In this document: in pieces, positions 28,708 through 64,000 of the stretch
How the letters are laid out: the number at the start of each line of letters is the position of its first letter
How positions within the stretch are numbered: position 1 is the first letter of the stretch
From: Serendipita indica DSM 11827
Taxonomy: Eukaryota; Basidiomycota; Agaricomycetes; Sebacinales; Serendipitaceae
NCBI GenBank assembly: GCA_910890315.1
Contig: CAJVGD010000001.1
Location: 372,001 to 436,000, forward strand
Length of the DNA stretch: 64,000 bases
Direction of reading: 5' to 3'
Program-made: the position numbers and the translations under genes
Notes under the pieces: generated by a model
Seen by the model: the letters and a program-made list of their open reading frames with translations, nothing else
Told to the model about the DNA's origin: nothing
The model's database searches: none

Positions 28708-31700
28708 TCAATAGCGGATATTAAGAGGATTGTAGGCAAGATCATCATCAGACTCTTCGTCTTCATCTCGCGGTGGTGGTGGCTTCTTTTGGGTGATTGG
28801 ATTGCGGGTACCTTGAGGGCGGCCTATAGACCTATGAGAGAGAGATCGAATCGTTAGAATGCATACTCACTAGTATGCGACTTGGACGAAGATGGTTTGT
28901 GCGAAGATCCTTCCGCCAACCTCGCATAGTCATTGTCTAGACTCAGCAACTCCAAATTCTTCGCCTCCAACATGCCTGCGTACTTCCTTAGCTGCTCCGT
29001 AACTGATACGAGTTCCGCCTTGAGATCTTTGTTCTCCGCCCGGAGCGACTCGATATCCTTGTCTCGTCTTTGAATATGCTGAGATAACTCATCCTTGAGC
29101 TTTCCATGGCTCTCTCGGAGACCAAATAGCTGGACCTTCAGCCTTTGCACCTCGACCTTGGACTCTTTGCTACGATTCTTTTCCTCTTCATAGTCCCGCT
29201 CGTTTCTACGTAGAGTCTCAAGTTCTCGGGTAGCATTCATCTTGAATGCCTTGAGCCGTTGCACCTCCTCCTCGAGCATTTTGTTGCGAGCCGTCTGCAC
29301 CTGACACTCTTGCTCCAATTCGTGCAACTTCTCCAGCTGCCGTGCGTTACTCTCTGAAGAGATGCTCATACCAACAAGTTGCGCTTCAAGACCGTCCCTC
29401 TCTACCGCCAAACGTGCGACTTGTGCCTCTAGTCGACCGTTGGTCTCCTCATGCTGAGCGAGCTTTTGCAGATATCCTTCGGGGAGAGTTGGATGGAATT
29501 TAGCATCCATACTAGACTGTGTAGACAGTGGCACGTCTGGTCCGGGTGAAGACGATGCTGGAGGAAGATGGTCGACGGGGCTGCTTGGGCATGTGGCGTC
29601 GGTGGTGACCCCGGAGAAGGATTCTGTCGGTTGCTCGATTGCAGAAAGCCCATTGGAACTCTCGTCCAGTACGATGGGCTCATCCACATCGATTTCTTCA
29701 GCATCGACGTCAAAGTTGCTGGACGAAATAGAGATCCGCGCTCGACGGCGATCTGTATTCGGTGTCTGGCTCTCTTCAAGAGGAATGGTGGCCAGGATAG
29801 GGGTGGCTTCGTCTGCCGTGGTCTCCGCCGTTGAAATATTCGTAGTAATGCTCAGCTTCGACTTCTTTTTAGGTTTCTTTCCGCTTTTGAGGCTGAATGT
29901 ACCATCCGTGGTCTTTCGCTTTCTCTTGCGTTGGATGTTGCCTTCCGCATCTATGGGTATAGTTGCCTTGGCACCTTTGGTAAGACGATGAGAAGGCTCC
30001 ATACTTGAATGTCTAGTGTCCTGATTCCAAGTAGGTTCGTTGATTTCTTCTCCGAGAATCGGGTCGTCTTCGTACTTTTCACAGATCACCTGCTACGGGT
30101 TAGCACTTTTTCAAAACGCGACCGAATTTCTTACATCTGGCAATGGATGGTCATAAAATCCCAGGCGAAGTCCAGTGGCTTTGATAGGATGACACTTGAC
30201 TTCGGTTGATGCAAGTCGGGTCATTGTATCGGAGGGGTGTGATAGTGTCTTGCACTTTTGCTTCCACTCAAGCCACCGAGGTGCCCAGGTAGTGTGAATG
30301 TAATGCCAGTCGCGATCATGCTGCAACCGGAATGCGGCTTCTGCAGCATGAACACCAATTGCAAGGAGGTGCGGAAAACAAATCGTGTCGTGACCTTGAA
30401 ACCTGTCAGCCAGACCAGAGACACGCAAAGAAAAGCGACTGACATCTCTCGCAAGTCACGCTTTGAAGTCGGGAAACTTCATGCGGTTCGCACCCAGCCG
30501 GTCCGCCTTTGCAGCGCATCTATAACTGAGTGAGCGTTTGTGGATGTAATACTTCCATTCGTACTGTCATGCTGATCCTACTATCAGACTTGTCGGTGGA
30601 GAGAGGGAAGCGTCGAATGTGGAGGATAGAAATGGCTCCCAGCGTCAAGTGAATGTATTCGTCATCTTCATATATATCCCTATACTTCGAGATTAGTTGA
30701 CCAGCAAGTCACCCAGTGTCACATACTCCAAATTGATGGATCGAGCGATTGAAGCTGGCACTGTCCCTAGGCTAGCAATACACCACTCTGCGATTCTATT
30801 TCTCATGGAAATGAGTTGCTCAAAGTTGAAAACAGAGCAAACTCTCAGCTTGCCGCACGCGCAAGATCGCCCCTCGGCACAACAAGCCGGGCAAAGCGTG
30901 ACTTCGCAACAGTCTGACGGTAGTGTTGATGTAGCAGAAGCAGCGACGTTGCTGGAGCAGACAAACGCCGCGTGGAATATGTCGGCGCCACAAAAGTCGC
31001 AATAGCCAGCATCGTCAAGCTTAGGCTCATGGTCTCGTGTCCCTTGGGTAAACTCTTCGACGAGTAGCCTGTCGAAGAGTTTGATTGCCTGCTGGATGGT
31101 GCCTGGGGCATACTCGATCGTCTCTGGTGATTGCAGCTGCCCTGCATCGAGTGATCGTTGAACGGCTTGCAGATAGCCATACAGCATTCTGCGGTATGGC
31201 GGCATTTTATCACAACAAAGGCTGCCCATTTTGTAAGTATAAGCTTGAGCGGAAGACGGAATACCAACCGATGCTTGACGCGTGTGTAGTGCTGAAACGC
31301 ATGCGCAACTGTCGGAAGAGAATATGTTTGCCACGTTCTAAACTCCATTTCAGATTCGACTTCGGCCTGTGTTGTATGAGAGAAAGATTTACATGATAAC
31401 GCTTGACATACCTGATAGAGAACACCGGGAGGCAAGCAAAGAACGTCTCCGGCGTTTTGCGTGACAGTATAGATAGTTACACCAGAAGAAATCAAGTCTT
31501 GGAATTGGTGAGACCCCAGTGCGGTATTTTGATTATCCAGAGAGATGCCCTTTGCCTCGAGTTTTTCCAGAGCATGGGGAACATCACAGCGGGCGATTAT
31601 CGACCAACGTGTATTGCAAATTGATGATGCTGCGCTGTATCCTTGCACCTAAAAAGTATTCGATGCTCAGAGTATCGAATTGGAGAGTGACATCCCTTAC

Positions 31701-55230: not shown

Positions 55231-57941
55231 ATGGCTCCCAAATCGAGTGGAAAGGAAAAAGGAGTGGATTCCGATGATGTTCTTCAGGCAGTTGTCATTG
55301 CAGAATCCTTTAATCGACGGTTCACGCCGCTCACGTTGAATAAACCTCGAGTACGCGCCAATTTATGATGAATAAAGAGTTTTCTAACAATGACCCTAAT
55401 CGAATGACCATGATTTGGATGCCTGTTTGCCGCCGTCCAACGCTTGCCACTCAATCCAATCGATATCAACTCTCAGTGTCTATTGCCCATGTGCAATGCG
55501 CCCCTTCTCGATTGGACATTCGAGAGTTTGGCTGTAGCAGGTGTTCAAGAAGTGTTTGTCATGTGTCAATCTCATTTCGAGTCAATTGAAGAGGCCATTC
55601 GGTATGTCTCCCTTGATTCTCCCAATCCAGTTCCCATCCACTCGTAACTGATCTATGTTAGCAACTCGAAATGGTCACAAACGGTTTCACCACTCAAGGT
55701 TCACGCCATGAAATTACCACCGACGACGCGCTCGTTTGGCGACGCGATCCGGTTTGTCGATAGCCAGTCGATCATCACAAACGACTTTGTGCTTGTTTCC
55801 GGGGACATGGTGTGCAATGTCAAAATCGACGAAGTCGTCAAGGCGCACAAGGCACGTAGAAAGGCCGACCACGAAGTCATCATGACTATTCTCGTCAAAG
55901 AGGCTGCCGTAGGCCACAGAACGAGGTACCTACCTTCTTCAATTGTGACGATGTCCGAGGACTGATGGAGCGTTCAGACCAAAAGGAGAAACTGCTGTAT
56001 TCACTATGGACGCAGCGAACAATCAGTTGTTACATTATGAGGGAGTACCTGCGGTCCCAAAGGTCAACAAAACGGCGTTTCCAAAAGCCCTCCTCAAAGG
56101 CACCGAACTGGACGTTCGATATGACCTTATCGACTGCGGCATCGACATATGCTCCGTTGATGTGAGTGTACTTGCGCGTGCGCCAAGTCATTTGTTAACC
56201 ACGTACGGTGGATTAGGTCCCCATCATCTTTAGCGACAACTTTCACGAAAATGATCTCCGACGAGACTTTGTGACCGAAGTCCTGACGTCGGAGATTCTA
56301 GGCAAGAAAATATTCTGCCACTACGCGGAAGACGGATACGCAGCCCGAGTTCGCGACCCACGAACCTATGCTGCTGTAAGGTCGGTTTCAAATAGAGAGG
56401 TCTCGTATCGTGTGCTGAGCCAGTATAGTCGTGATATCATTGGACGATGGTGCTTCCCCTTGGTTCCAGACGATAATCATCCAGGAGGTCACCAGTACGA
56501 ACACCTACCAGGGAACCGCTATCTCGCCAAAGACAAGGTCACGCTATCGCGGTAATGCCGATGCATTCAAGGTGTCCTACTTTACTAACCTACATAACAG
56601 AAATTGCAAGATTGGCAACAACACTTTGATAGGACCCGGTTCCCGACTCAACGACACGGCTCGAGTCGAAGGCTCTGTCTTGGGAGAGAATTGTACCATC
56701 AATGGCGGCGCCATGATCCGAAATAGCTATCTCTGGAATGGCGTATCGATAGGAGCGGGATGCATCATCAAGGAGAGCATTCTCGGTGCCAATGTGGTCG
56801 TCGAAACTGGAGCAGTGATTGAGAGGGGCTGTTTGATTGGCGAAGATGTTGTCATTCGCACACATTCGAGGATCCCCGAGTTTAGTCGTATCGCGAAGAA
56901 AAAGGATGCAGCTCCAGGTTTGATCTTACTTCTCCAATGACCTTTTGCTTATGTATTGGCCACAGATGAAGAGGCTTCGTACTATGTCGAGGACGCTGCG
57001 CCAGCCGATTCCGATTCCGATTCTGATGAGGATCAGGATCCACTCGAAAGCGCCGCCAATCTTCGTTACTTGAGACTAGGTACGAGTCTCACCCTCTTAT
57101 CCCAAATCAGACCTGACTGCTAGCAGGAGGAACAGGAAAAGATTCCTCTGAATCCGAGACAGAGTACAATGACTCTGGAAGTGAGGGGAGGCGGATGTCC
57201 ACGACGTGTACGATCCGGCAGAACTCGAGCGCGATCCTTGGTCGTCACTAAGACGGCAGGACGAGTTTGGTCGAGAAGCGTATCAAACGCTGAAGCGCGG
57301 TGTTGACGAGCATCTCAATGTCTCTGACGTTGCGCTCGAGCTGTCGACATTGCGCATGGCGAGCAACGCAGACCCAGAGAGAATCAAAGTAATGGCGCTG
57401 GCGTTTCTACTTGAACAGATGCGGCTAGTTGAAGGCAACCAAGTCGAGCAGAAGCGTGCAGCTACAGAGGTGGTTACCCGATGGGGTGGACTGGTCGCAG
57501 CCTTGTGTCGCGGGGAGATGGAGGTGGCGCTCTCTCGACTCCAGGTGAGTTAATCACGACCGTCCATTGGTAGTTATTGACCGGCCATAGAAACTATGTG
57601 CGACATCGAATTACTCCTCGGCCTTTGGTGCCTTATTATCGGCACTATTCCTCGCAGAAATCATCGATGAGGACGTGATAGAGGCATGGCATCTACGACC
57701 AGATTCCAGAGGCGAAGAAGGGTCCAATTTGAACAAACTCTGGCGCGTTGGACAAGCAATGTTGGCGGCCTTGGCCCCGGATAGTGACGAGGAGTCGTCT
57801 GAAGAAGAGAGCGAGGAAGAGGAGAGTGATGATGAAGACCCGGCTCCAGCAAAGCCCAATGCGGCTTCAAAGAAAGAGGCTGAGGAATCTGACGACGAAG
57901 ACGAAGACGAAGAAGAGGATGAAGAAAGCGAAGAAGAGTGA
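55231..57941 (+). CDS. GCD6: Translation initiation factor eIF2B epsilon (Gcd6)
   Basis: This is the catalytic subunit of the guanine-nucleotide exchange factor for eIF2. ATG at 55231 gives 'MAPKSSGKEKGVDSDDVLQA'. The nucleotidyltransferase-like part reads 'PMCNAPLLDWTFESLAVAG' and 'FVLVSGDMVCNVKIDEVV'. The left-handed beta-helix follows ('NCKIGNNTLIGPGSRL', 'SVLGENCTINGGAMIRNSYL'). The W2/HEAT domain includes 'ALELSTLRMASNAD', 'LFLAEIIDEDVIEAWH' and the acidic aromatic end. A 41-base intron at 57181-57221 is needed to keep the frame. The tail is a long Glu/Asp/Ser run to 57941. All domains are present. It converges with the DMAC1-like gene, 22 bases between stops. Confidence 0.95.
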
Positions 57942-58314: not shown

Positions 58315-59209
58315 ATGACAGAACTACAAGTCTTGCGAGATCTACGCTATGGAGAGCATCCTTTACACACGTGGGACCTCTACATACCTTCAGGTATCTC
58401 TGAATCTCCAGATTCCAAAGCGAAAGGAGTGATTGTGTTTGTACACGGCGGTGCTTGGAGAAGGTTTGTGGCTTCTAGTTTATCATTCTTGTCTCACAGA
58501 TTGTCTCAAGTGGAGATAAGTCTGAACATGAGACACTCGCTCGGAACCTCTTGTCAGCATCAAAACTCCCGATTGCAGTCCCAAACTATCGTCTATCCCC
58601 GAGAACCCCACCTCCAGATTCAGAAGCATCGATCAAGCATCCTGTTCACGTTCAAGACACGTCCTTGGCGCTAGATGCGATCATCAGTTCTCAGAACTTG
58701 CGTCAGATCTCGGATACGAGCAGAGTATTCCTCATTGGTCACTCTTGTGGAGCTCATATGCTGGCATCCCTTCTCCTTGATCCACCAGCAGGAGAAGGAG
58801 CTCCATCTGATTTACGACCCAGCGTAGCAGTGAACGACGCGATAAAGGGCGTAGTATTGGCGGAGGGGATCCATGATCTCGACCTACTACTCGAGACATT
58901 TCCCTCGTACCAAGATTTTGTCCAAGGAGCTTTCCCAGGCTCCAACTTTTCTCCATTCTCCGTGACACGATATAGTGTGAGAGAAGGAGCACCACTTAGA
59001 TGGCTCGTCGCGCAATCACAGGCGACACCCTCATCGACGAGGCACAGGCAGCCAGCATGTATGCGCACCTGCAGTCCGAGTACGGGCGGATGGGCTGGGA
59101 CACTGCACTTGTACAAAAGGATTTTGATAGCACAACCGAGGATCACGACAAGGTGCTTCTTACAACACGCTTTGCAGAGGTGGCCTGTAGGATCTTGGAG
59201 GAAAATTGA
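58315..59209 (+). CDS. BNA7: Kynurenine formamidase (arylformamidase)
   Basis: It converts N-formylkynurenine to kynurenine, the second step of tryptophan breakdown to NAD. ATG at 58315 gives 'MTELQVLRDLRYGEHPLHTW'. The oxyanion motif 'VIVFVHGGAWR' (HGGxW) is followed, after a 47-base intron, by 'SGDKSEHETLARNLL' and 'VPNYRLSPRTPP'. The nucleophile elbow is 'FLIGHSCGAHM' (GxSxG). The last part holds 'REGAPLRWLVAQS', then 'GDTLIDEAQAASMYAHL' with the acid residue, and 'DHDKVLLTTRFAE' with the active His. The frame shifts by one base near 59015-59020 between these two blocks. Either one base is missing there or an unlikely 47-base intron (58975-59021) removes 'REGAPLRWLVAQS'. The stop is 2 bases from the kynureninase stop. 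Confidence 0.85.
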
Positions 59210-59211
59210 CT

Positions 59212-60896
59212 TTATTCCATCGCAAGCGATTCAAAGGCATCATTGAGGACTTGAATAGCTCGCTCGCAATCCTCTTCAGAGACGTACAGAGGTGCCGGGG
59301 CAAGTCGTATCACGTCCGGGTTCCGCTCGTCTCCAACGACCCCGTATGCCTTGAGGTGCTCCTGAATCTTTTGCATGGTACCGGAGCGACTCGGTAAGAA
59401 GAGTACAGAGAGTTGTGCACCTCGAGACTCTATCTCTGCGGGTGTGATGATGGTCATGCAAGGCTTTGTCGCCCCGTGAGCTCGTTCAACCGGAATATAG
59501 TGCTTGGACGAGCGAATACCGTCTTCCAAGGTCTTTGTCAGGGCCACTGATTGTTTCCTTAGGGCATCCAACCCTCCCGCGGCCTGAAAAACCTCTAAGC
59601 TTCCTAGAAGCGAGACTGTCGAAAGCACTCCTGGATTGGACTGCTGGAAGCCCTGGGCTCCCTTGATCGGGGAGAACGTAGAGGGCATCTGAAACCTAGT
59701 ACGGGGATCGTGACCCCACCATCCTGCTTGACTACGGGCCAACTCAGCGACTTGCCGAGGTATACGACGAAGAGGGACTCACGAAGGCGGGAGTTTGTCG
59801 TGCCACTTTTGATGGACAAACAGGCCACCTATGCTACCTGGTCCCGCGTTGAGGTACTTGTATGAGCACCAAACGGCAAAATCTACGCCCCAGTCATGGA
59901 GGCGAAGAGGAACGTTGCCAATGGCATGGGCCAAGTCCCACCCAACAAGAGCGCCCTACGTACACACTCGGGGTTATTCAACGAGTAGCGAAATCGTGGC
60001 GGGAGGAACGGGAAAAGTTCTGTCAATCGGCGGAGGACTTGCCATATCGTGTCCCGCTTCCGTTATTTTCCTCATCGGGAACCATTGACCAGTGTAGTAT
60101 TGGACGCCACTGAAAAGTACCAATGCCGTCTCTTTTCCGTGCTGCCGAATAGTGTCGAGAATATCCGACTCACGCAGCGTGAATTCGCCAGACCTTGGCC
60201 AAACCTCGATGATGGCCGACTTGGGTTCAAAACCGTGGGATTGGGCCTGGGAAGCGAAAGCATACTATCAATCGGAAGACAGAGTGTTTCAGTAGAGTTG
60301 AGATGGGCAACGTGTACGGTACCTGGTCCGAGGGGAACGCCCGAGCCTCGCAAATAATTTTGTAGCGGTCTTTGGTCGGCTTGTAAAAACTGTTCATCAT
60401 AAGGTGCAGGTTTGCGGTCAGAGTTCCCATGCATGCGACTTCGACAGGGTCGGCTCCTGTACGCATTGTCAAAGATGCATCCTCTGGGCTCGTTTGATGG
60501 TTGCGTACCAACCAAAGAGGCAAGTAGAGGGTTAACATGGTCGGTTATGTCCTTCCAGTTGCGGTCATGAGGATGGTCAAAGTGGCCCTCTACAGCCCTG
60601 ACAACTTGAAGTCAAAGGCCTGCGGCGCGCACAGAATTGAGAGAGTGGAGTATTGGTCTCGCTGGTTACCTCTTCCCCCATACGTCAAGCTCTTCGGATA
60701 TAAGTTGTTTAGTCCTTTTTGGCAACAGTCCGAGCGAATTGCCACACAGATAGACGCAGGGCTTTGATGCTGCGGCAAAAAACTGATAAGAGCCTTGAAC
60801 GGATCGGAAGTAAAGAAGTTATGTACCATCTTCTGGAGATAGTTTTGATGCGCCAATATCCAAGTTTAGAGGAATCACAAAGTCGTCCTTATTCAT
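59212..60896 (-). CDS. BNA5: Kynureninase (PLP enzyme)
   Basis: It cleaves 3-hydroxykynurenine to 3-hydroxyanthranilate (and kynurenine to anthranilate). ATG at 60896 gives '[20 protein letters not shown]'. After a 43-base intron it reads '[19 protein letters not shown]', the substrate-pocket motif. '[20 protein letters not shown]' and '[20 protein letters not shown]' follow. The PLP lysine is in '[20 protein letters not shown]'. The C-terminal part is '[20 protein letters not shown]', '[20 protein letters not shown]', and the end '[11 protein letters not shown]' is at 59212. The length of about 470 residues is normal. It shares a divergent promoter with kynurenine 3-monooxygenase. Confidence 0.94.
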
Positions 60897-61008
60897 GACG
60901 TCCAAGATGGCAAGGTTCAACTTGGATCCTTACAAATACGATCGACGTCTCGTTGAACCTTGACTTTGGACTAAGTTATCAAAGAAATCTCTGTATTTTG
61001 TCTCCTAG
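60897..61008. promoter_or_regulatory. Divergent promoter kynureninase / kynurenine 3-monooxygenase
   Basis: This 112-base segment is the only space between the start codons of two consecutive pathway genes, so a common regulator could act on both. It is A/T-richer than the flanking coding sequence on its right side. No palindrome of operator size is obvious by eye. Confidence 0.5.
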
Positions 61009-62787
61009 ATGCCGCGAACGGCCGTTGTTGTTGGCGCTGGGCCCGTGGGATGTCTAGCCGCTCTTGCGCTACGCAACGCCGGCTGGACAGTGACCGTATA
61101 TGATGCCCGTCCTGGTCAGTACTGTCGAATAAAAGCTTTTCTATTGTGTCTGATACACATTAGACATGCGTCTCCCTGAAAATAAGAGCCAACTGTCGCA
61201 ACGCTCGATCAATTTGGCCATTTCCGCCAGAGGTATCACCGCCTTGCATTCGGTGAACCCAAAGTTTGCAGAAAGATTCCTGGATACGGCAATTCCTATG
61301 CGCGGGAGAATGATCCATCCCGTTCACGGAAGAGAAGAAAGCCAACTGTACGACCTGAATGGGCAGGTATGTCCGAATAGCTTACGATAGCCTCCGGTAT
61401 TGATCTCTGCAACAAAAGTGCATCAACTCGATTGACAGGGCACTTCTCAACGAGGACTTGCTCAACCAACTGACAGCCGCATCTGTGCCTATAGTCTTCC
61501 GCCACAAGCTGCTTCATGCAGACTTTGATCACAAGACGTTGACATTCTACTCCGAATCTGATCAAAAGGACGTGCGTGTACGTTACGACTTTTGCATCGG
61601 GGCAGATGGCTGCTATTCAGCGGTCCGCCGACAGCTGATGCGGGTAGTCCGGTACGTGTGCCATCGGTAGAGGTTTCTTCGAGATTAATCTGTCTCACAG
61701 AATGAACTACCAGCAAGAATACATCCCTCATGAATACATTGAGCTCCGAATTCCTGCTGGAAAGGGACCCTCCGGGGAGGATACGTTTCGACTAGACCCA
61801 AATCACCTGCATATCTGGCCACGGCATTCTTTCATGCTTATTGCATTGCCTAACAAGGTTGAAAAGCCCTCAATTTACACAAACTGCTGTTGATATCCAT
61901 ACAGGACAAAACATTCACTTCGACCCTCTTTGCACCCACGGCAGAATTTGAAAGATTTCGCGACGACAAAATGTTTATATCGTGGTTCCGGACACACTTT
62001 CCGGATGCTCTCGATTTGGTTGGCGAAGATCGGCTGCTACACGACTACAAGCACAATCCGAGAAGCGCTCTGATTCACATCAAGGTTAGTGCGTTTCCAC
62101 GGAGCTAGGCTGGGCCTGCTAAAACCCCCCGGAATAGACCCGACCGTATCACTACAAGGACAATGTCATCCTCTTGGGTGATGCTGCCCATGCCATGGTG
62201 CCCTTTTACGGCCAGGGGCTCAACTGTGGACTGGAAGACGTCCGCGTTCTCCACGTGCTACTAGAGAAGCACAGGGTCGACCCTGAAAATATGGTCCCGG
62301 ACGGACAAGTCGATGACAACCTTTCTCGCGCTTTGCAAGAATACACCGACTCGCGACACGAAGACTTGGATGCAATTTGCGACCTTGCCATGGCAAACTA
62401 GTGCGTCGGTTGATTGATTTCTCCTTGGTTCACCCATCTCACCCCTTGTCGTCTAGTGAGGAGATGAGGCATGCAGTGACAACGCCCATGTATCGGCTGC
62501 GAAAGACGCTCGATGGGCTACTATCGAGGTGGACGCCGTTCCTCCCGTTCCAATCCTTTTTCCCATACCTGTCGTCGAACACGTTTGAACCGACGCCGAA
62601 CGGCTGGCTCGCACTGTATACGATGGTCACCTTTCGACCGGATATACGCTACTCTGAAGTGCGACGAAAGGCAAAACGGCAAGATTACCTTCTTTCCATG
62701 TTTGCTTGGAGCGGGATCGCAACCACGGCCGGTGTCGGCTCGTTGGCCGTCGGTTTGCAGTTATGGGCACGGTGGAGACGGTGCTGA
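61009..62787 (+). CDS. BNA4: Kynurenine 3-monooxygenase
   Basis: This FAD enzyme hydroxylates kynurenine at the outer mitochondrial membrane. ATG at 61009 gives '[20 protein letters not shown]' (GxGxxG, FAD site). Then come '[19 protein letters not shown]', '[16 protein letters not shown]' (DG motif), '[18 protein letters not shown]', '[20 protein letters not shown]' and the second FAD motif '[20 protein letters not shown]'. The C-terminal part has '[20 protein letters not shown]' and a final hydrophobic helix '[19 protein letters not shown]' that anchors the enzyme. The stop is at 62787. Four or five introns of about 45-55 bases. Everything expected is present, including the C-terminal anchor. 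Confidence 0.95.
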
Positions 62788-63176: not shown

Positions 63177-63746
63177 TCAAGCGACCGGGGCAGGCTGAGC
63201 TTCGAGCGTCGGAGCAATGACTGGAGCCTCTTCGTCTGTCTTTGGCTTTTTGCGCGGACGACCACGCTTTGCGGGTGGACGATTCTTCTTTGCCTCTTCT
63301 GCGGCTAGCTCTTCGGGAGTCTTGATCTGGTTTGAAAGCAATGTTAGAACACGTCTGAGAACAGATGGGACGGGGCGCAACATGCCTTTTTGGGACGTCC
63401 CCTACCACGTTTGACTGGCGGGGCTGGGGCGTCTCCGGAGACGGGAGCAGCGGGGTCTACTGGAACACTGTCGGTAGCAGGAGCGGGCGCATCTGCACCG
63501 TCTGGTTTCTTGCCAGTGCTTGCTGGTCGTCCACGCTTGCGTTTCTGGGCGTCGGCGGAGACGACTGGGAGTGCAAACGAGTCGAAAGGAGTGAAAACCA
63601 AGTCCAAACGACGAGTAGACGGTCAGTCTTTACACCACTGGCAACGGGCGGGTCCACATACGCGCTGGATCAACGAGCTGGTCGTTAGCATCGATATCCT
63701 CATCATCAGACTCTCTGCTGCGCTTTGCAGGCGGGACAGTCGCCAT
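63177..63746 (-). CDS. HMGA-like AT-hook protein with three hooks
   Basis: This is a small chromatin protein that should bind the minor groove of A/T-rich DNA. ATG at 63746 gives 'MATVPPAKRSRESDDEDIDA'. Three AT-hooks follow: 'QKRKRGRPASTG', 'VKRGRGRPKK' and 'AKRGRPRKKPK', all with the RGRP core. The linker is rich in Ala, Pro, Asp and Val. The tail reads 'APVIAPTLEAQPAPVA' and stops at 63177. Two introns are needed. The second (63327-63385) appears to use a GC donor (AAG|gcatgt), which keeps the frame into 'IKTPEELAAEE'. The protein has about 130 residues and no other domain, like mammalian HMGA proteins in layout. Confidence 0.82.
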
Positions 63747-64000
63747 TCTTCGTACAAAAGGCCCAGTGGTGGCGGGGGAGAAGGAGCGGCGAGCACGGTC
63801 CCCTCTGGAAATTCGGGGGGCCTTTTATGGGTTGAAACACCTTTACGCTATTTGTGGCTTATTTTCTGCAATTAACATTCAGTCTCCTGATTATTCCGCC
63901 GTTATCGAGACGTCCCCTTGGAACGGCTCCCGCGCCTCGAGCGGCCCCTTGAAAATTCCCAATAATTGCCGACGGCTTTCTGGAAATTTTCTCAGCATTT

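Follow-up and report, generated by a model that had tools for sequence, protein, structure and literature searches.

In Saccharomyces cerevisiae, the kynurenine-pathway genes BNA7, BNA5 and BNA4 are scattered in the genome, and bacterial kyn operons are arranged as kynA-kynB-kynU. Bacterial loci that lead from tryptophan to quinolinate and contain KMO have reportedly been described as well (Kurnasov, in 2003). Among fungi, clusters of primary-metabolism genes of the GAL, DAL and tyrosine-degradation type are named in excerpts of two papers (PMC7826186; PMC3914699); the other papers cited here by accession are likewise represented by excerpts. Here we describe a locus of Serendipita indica DSM 11827 in which a likely kynurenine-formamidase-type hydrolase (KFA), a kynureninase (KYNU) and a kynurenine 3-monooxygenase (KMO) are encoded side by side. 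The locus lies in a stretch of 64 kb, called the window (C1:372001-436000, C1 being contig CAJVGD010000001.1), of an assembly with 24.7 Mb in 55 contigs; positions given without a contig are those of the window. We read it, with moderate confidence, as a partial cluster of primary-metabolism genes whose KMO and KYNU would be expressed together from a common bidirectional promoter.

In Aspergillus fumigatus, IdoB (Afu4g09830) and the kynureninase Bna5 (Afu4g09840) carry consecutive tags, and the formamidase (Afu1g09960) and Bna4 (Afu6g07340, in a row with an unclear product label) carry tags of other chromosomes (PMC5786828). In Rhodotorula toruloides, the gene numbers of BNA4 (9267), BNA5 (8725) and BNA1 (8602) are non-consecutive, with no number given for BNA7 in the excerpt (PMC7873862), which is a weak hint against linkage there because gene numbering need not follow gene order. 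Only 1.6% of enzyme genes are given as clustered in Agaricomycetes (PMC4256263), and functional clustering in Basidiomycota is described as less characterised (PMC10218983). The term "cluster" had no match in the main text of Ternes and Schonknecht 2014 (PMC4217691). A fungal KFA-KYNU-KMO cluster is not described in the titles and abstract beginnings of the papers listed by the literature searches, but may still be published. Moreover, searches for related neighbourhoods with a single-sequence pattern, which finds close relatives only, returned 7 pattern stretches for KYNU on viral contigs and 18 for KMO on genome contigs, with none confirmed in either set.

Results

Three adjacent genes on alternating strands

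The gene models of KFA, KYNU and KMO were spliced by hand from the raw sequence and its reading frames. They occupy 58315-62787 in this order, on the plus, minus and plus strands, respectively, without any intervening gene. The spliced models thereby bear out the block of three consecutive genes that had been proposed in an earlier reading of the same DNA made from its letters alone (the sequence-only reading). KFA and KYNU are convergent, with 2 bases separating their stop codons, and KYNU and KMO are divergent, with their start codons 112 bases apart. The features of the locus are as follows.

58315..59209, plus strand: KFA, likely kynurenine-formamidase-type alpha/beta hydrolase (models, Pfam, PDB, motifs)
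58975..59021, plus strand: disputed KFA stretch, read either as a 47-base GT-AG intron or as coding sequence whose frame breaks near 59019-59021 (models, codon usage, Pfam)
59212..60896, minus strand: KYNU, kynureninase (models, PDB, TIGR01814, KYNU_C)
60897..61008, no strand: KYNU-KMO divergent intergenic region of 112 bases, presumed bidirectional promoter (gene-model distance)
60911..60962, no strand: candidate binding site formed by a perfect inverted repeat of 11 bases, with arms at 60911-60921 and 60952-60962 and a spacer of 30 bases (repeat search of the 112 bases)
61009..62787, plus strand: KMO, kynurenine 3-monooxygenase (models, PDB, FAD_binding_3)

A back-of-envelope estimate, assuming 8000 genes, gave ~9e-8 for the chance contiguity of this named trio and ~5e-6 for that of any trio among eight pathway genes, both counting one pathway only. 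The adjacency of the trio is right and, for one pathway, it is not chance-like. Contiguous genes for steps of a single pathway are one mark of a fungal metabolic gene cluster, and such genes are found at this locus. The cluster is positioned at ~430-435 kb, far inside a contig of 2.59 Mb. A nearby contig end therefore does not explain why IDO and 3-HAO are missing alongside it, although different contigs may share a chromosome. The mixed gene orientation, a GC-AG intron in KYNU and an interruption of the KFA frame are features beyond those of the sequence-only reading.

KYNU and KMO

The KYNU model has 7 exons and encodes 435 residues on the minus strand (59212-60896). In the PDB search, solved kynureninases matched it with a best E=1.4e-111. 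Furthermore, the curated equivalog TIGR01814 of NCBIfam scored 395.6 bits over residues 4-429 (cut-off 246.4), and the Pfam family KYNU_C scored 66.2 bits (cut-off 27). We thus assign KYNU firmly to the kynureninase family. The KYNU model begins at the first in-frame ATG that is available; residue 5 aligns with residue 45 of the 3e9k chain, and the exact start is uncertain because this N-terminus is shorter than those of the solved relatives. The 87-base intron at 59956-60042 is of the GC-AG type, and all remaining modelled introns are GT-AG. Intron lengths range from 47 to 87 bases in the KYNU and KMO models.

The KMO model also comprises 7 exons, encoding 490 residues on the plus strand (61009-62787). 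Solved kynurenine 3-monooxygenases in the PDB matched residues 3-402 of the 490 (best E=9.4e-104), and FAD_binding_3 of Pfam scored 82.5 bits (cut-off 22); these matches make the assignment to the kynurenine 3-monooxygenase family firm. The best 25 of the 65 NCBIfam rows contained no KMO model and none scored above its own cut-off, the top row being VioC with 152.3 bits against a cut-off of 760. A hydrophobic C-terminal segment, a possible membrane-anchoring region, was seen by eye near residues 458-485 of the model.

The intergenic region between KYNU and KMO

The perfect inverted repeat in the 112 bases between KYNU and KMO was evaluated against several backgrounds. An 11-base inverted repeat was reached in 1 of 2000 shuffles. 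When the window was divided into 571 tiles of 112 bases, a single tile (31025-31136) contained a perfect inverted repeat as long as this or longer (12 bases), in a count where the KYNU-KMO region itself straddles a tile border. The exact arm pair, allowing a gap of 20-50 bases, occurs once in the genome, at the KYNU-KMO region. Only the pairing of the arms is notable, because 39 of 100 shuffles had at least as many single-arm near-matches as the window. No exact copy of the arm was present in the 9.9 kb of sequence around each of five other pathway genes (3-HAO, QPRT and the three IDO genes). The repeat may be a local site or luck. A regulon-wide motif derived from the 11-base arm was not found; the lack of enrichment and the random-level upstream matches given in the Discussion speak against one.

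KFA and the interruption of its frame

Abhydrolase_3 of Pfam scored 50 bits on KFA (cut-off 25), and the motifs HGGAW and GHSCGA can be read in the model. Bna7-type alpha/beta hydrolases have HGGxW as their oxyanion motif and a serine nucleophile motif. The best PDB matches to KFA were two esterases (E=5.1e-10 and 2.3e-9), followed by 1vkh (E=6.2e-7), a "putative serine hydrolase" that we take to be yeast Bna7; 4e11, annotated as "kynurenine formamidase", matched with E=9.6e-4. The 1vkh alignment extends into the KFA segment gihdldllletfpsyqdfvqgafpg, where the esterase alignments end. The top NCBIfam row was a lipase family with 55.8 bits against a cut-off of 320. KFA is likely to be a kynurenine-formamidase-type hydrolase with a presumed substrate, the weakest of the three assignments; the neighbourhood helps this assignment, yet is circular as proof. 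The enzyme identities proposed in the sequence-only reading can therefore be held firmly for KYNU and KMO but only as likely for KFA, for which esterases outrank formamidase in the PDB.

The KFA exons at 58315-58463 and 58511-59018 are followed by coding-like sequence in a shifted frame (59021-59209). The interruption after codon 219, near 59019-59021 and just before the presumed catalytic Asp region, is an assembly error, a real lesion or a 47-base intron at 58975-59021. The intron reading would remove an apparent core strand from KFA. The codon-usage score of the disputed stretch, -0.98, lies between those of exons and those of introns. Among the KYNU and KMO exon windows, on which the score was also trained, 56 of 66 were positive (lowest value -2.75), and 17 of 18 KMO intron frames were negative. 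The Pfam bit scores of the two KFA versions differed by at most 2.5 bits across six listed families. When KFA was read across the break, Abhydrolase_6 reached residue 226 versus 188 and Abhydrolase_1 reached residue 217 versus 196, and these longer profile runs give a slight hint that the disputed stretch is coding. The C-terminal part alone had no Pfam match in either version. Against the PDB, its version with X gave a single unrelated chance match, and its intron version gave a weak match to 1vkh (E=1.3) outside the disputed stretch.

It is possible, though in our judgement unlikely, that KFA is a decaying pseudogene and that the KYNU-KMO pair is the only functional unit. The frame is interrupted immediately ahead of the presumed catalytic Asp segment, and hydrolysis of formylkynurenine, spontaneous or by other hydrolases, could make KFA dispensable. 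However, a further 62 residues can be read past the break before a stop, and no additional lesion was seen in them. One error in the assembly would give the same picture, and a GT-AG intron of 47 bases, a length normal for this locus, would likewise leave the frame open.

Other pathway genes and copy number

The genome searches score the best candidates only, and "none found" is not absolute for any of them. All 7 genome matches of the KYNU query fell in the window gene, as did all 7 of the KMO query, and no second copy of either gene was found. The KFA query (N-terminal 219 residues) had 2 matches in the window gene, and its only other match was remote, a stretch on contig C6 with 29% identity. 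The FAD_binding_3 family had 9 matches in the genome, 2 of them in the window gene. IDO-family matches, 7 in total on 3 contigs, were read as three genes from the genome search:

C44:949073-950445: IDO-family gene
C19:121356-123080: IDO-family gene
C40:723962-725371: IDO-family gene

Two 3-HAO matches on C6 were read as one gene, and QPRT had a strong match on C14 and a weak match on C12. The search for TDO gave no genome match. The sequence-only reading had suggested looking for TDO or IDO and for 3-HAO beside the cluster; IDO and 3-HAO are located on other contigs.

Neighbouring genes

The neighbour scan (Pfam, threshold 0.001) included 17 selected frames, of which 10 lie upstream within the window and 7 were chosen from 20 listed downstream. 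Nine of these had no Pfam match, and the other 8 look like ordinary genes. An upstream gene (56419-57938) has an eIF2B-epsilon domain and a W2 match below cut-off, and farther upstream we found SUR7, the RsmB/F rRNA-methyltransferase family and a syntaxin match below cut-off. Downstream, past the window, two frames match protein kinase and one has an amino-acid permease match below cut-off. Core synthase, oxidase or tailoring genes were not found among the 17 frames, 9 of them Pfam-blank, and none of the immediate neighbours of the trio was recognised as a dedicated regulator or transporter. Directly downstream of KMO, at ~63180-63750 on the minus strand, a protein with repeated RGRP motifs (AT-hook-like) was read by eye.

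Discussion

In the proposed pathway, KFA would make kynurenine, KMO would oxidise kynurenine to 3-hydroxykynurenine, and KYNU would cleave the latter to 3-hydroxyanthranilate; the further steps towards nicotinamide adenine dinucleotide (NAD) would fall to the unlinked 3-HAO and QPRT. Because KYNU and KMO diverge across 112 bases, one regulatory region most likely drives both. Such a shared drive would balance production and consumption of the reactive 3-hydroxykynurenine. KFA would be driven by a separate promoter upstream of 58315, and only its position ties it to the pair. It is plausible that de novo NAD synthesis is co-regulated through this locus, as the sole KYNU and KMO found are located here with the 112-base region in common. 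Single copies and ordinary-looking matched neighbours speak for a housekeeping role in NAD synthesis rather than for a secondary-metabolite cluster.

Several observations weigh against the partial cluster with a common promoter. KFA has an interrupted frame and the least secure family assignment of the trio. The single repeat arm is not enriched, with 21 genome matches compared with 30 for the reversed control. Upstream of KFA, the 3-HAO gene (HAAO), the three IDO genes and QPRT, regions placed approximately from match ends or a by-eye start codon, the best arm matches have 2-4 mismatches; 200 of 200 random window segments are likewise 2-4 mismatches from the arm. Moreover, the inverted repeat is a post hoc observation, and its left arm could belong to the KYNU leader sequence. 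The gene numbers of A. fumigatus and R. toruloides, as far as excerpted, oppose a widely kept trio.

A lineage rearrangement could have brought the three genes together without any regulatory meaning, which we regard as improbable but deserving consideration. The genes seem unlinked in A. fumigatus, where the excerpted tags point to three chromosomes, and in R. toruloides for BNA4 and BNA5; a regulon-wide motif was not found, and the proportion of clustered enzyme genes excerpted for Agaricomycetes is low. The estimate of ~5e-6 for any trio of eight argues against such neutral adjacency, although many pathways exist, and so does the very short divergent region containing an inverted repeat.

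The excerpted locus numbers of the same two fungi suggest that the adjacency may be lineage-limited. We tentatively consider a lineage-specific mini-cluster, in which the 112-base bidirectional promoter would use the inverted repeat as a dedicated site against a toxic intermediate and KFA would be joined by tail-to-tail transcript overlap; we doubt this more elaborate version. A toxic-intermediate hypothesis of fungal gene linkage was reportedly put forward by McGary and colleagues in 2013.

The sequence-only reading also offered a tryptophan-derived secondary product. A locus serving such a product rather than NAD might, for example, supply 3-hydroxyanthranilate, in which the three steps end, to phenoxazinone pigments of the cinnabarinic acid kind, and some basidiomycetes make such pigments. 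We consider this very unlikely: no second copies were found, so that KYNU and KMO must also serve NAD synthesis, the 8 Pfam-matched neighbours look ordinary, and the 17 selected frames include no oxidase or biosynthetic core family, with a weak permease match and a kinase downstream.

If the divergence of KYNU and KMO is conserved and the two genes are co-expressed, the partial cluster would provide a clean test, in NAD metabolism, of linkage as a guard against toxic intermediates, as well as a compact native bidirectional promoter for study. If the adjacency is limited to one lineage and unregulated, it would be a routine rearrangement.

The steps of KFA, KYNU and KMO are those of BNA7, BNA5 and BNA4 in S. 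cerevisiae, where the genes are scattered, whereas they are adjacent here; the structures matched by KMO and KFA presumably include yeast proteins. The bacterial kyn loci share with this locus a chemistry grouped in one place. Unlike the bacterial operons, however, the genes described here are separate, contain introns and lie on both strands, and the PDB enzymes that KYNU and KMO match best are, we take it, eukaryotic. The IdoB-Bna5 pair of A. fumigatus, as excerpted, resembles the S. indica locus in having two adjacent kynurenine-pathway genes, but it joins IDO to kynureninase, whereas the IDO genes of S. indica are on other contigs. A possible regulatory parallel is Rss1 of Ustilago maydis, which responds to anthranilate and controls tryptophan degradation according to the excerpt (PMC5082525). 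As in the excerpted GAL, DAL and tyrosine-degradation types of cluster, successive pathway steps are contiguous, although only three pathway genes are linked here and their co-regulation is presumed. Clustering of primary-metabolism genes is already a known fungal phenomenon, of which this locus is a modest example.

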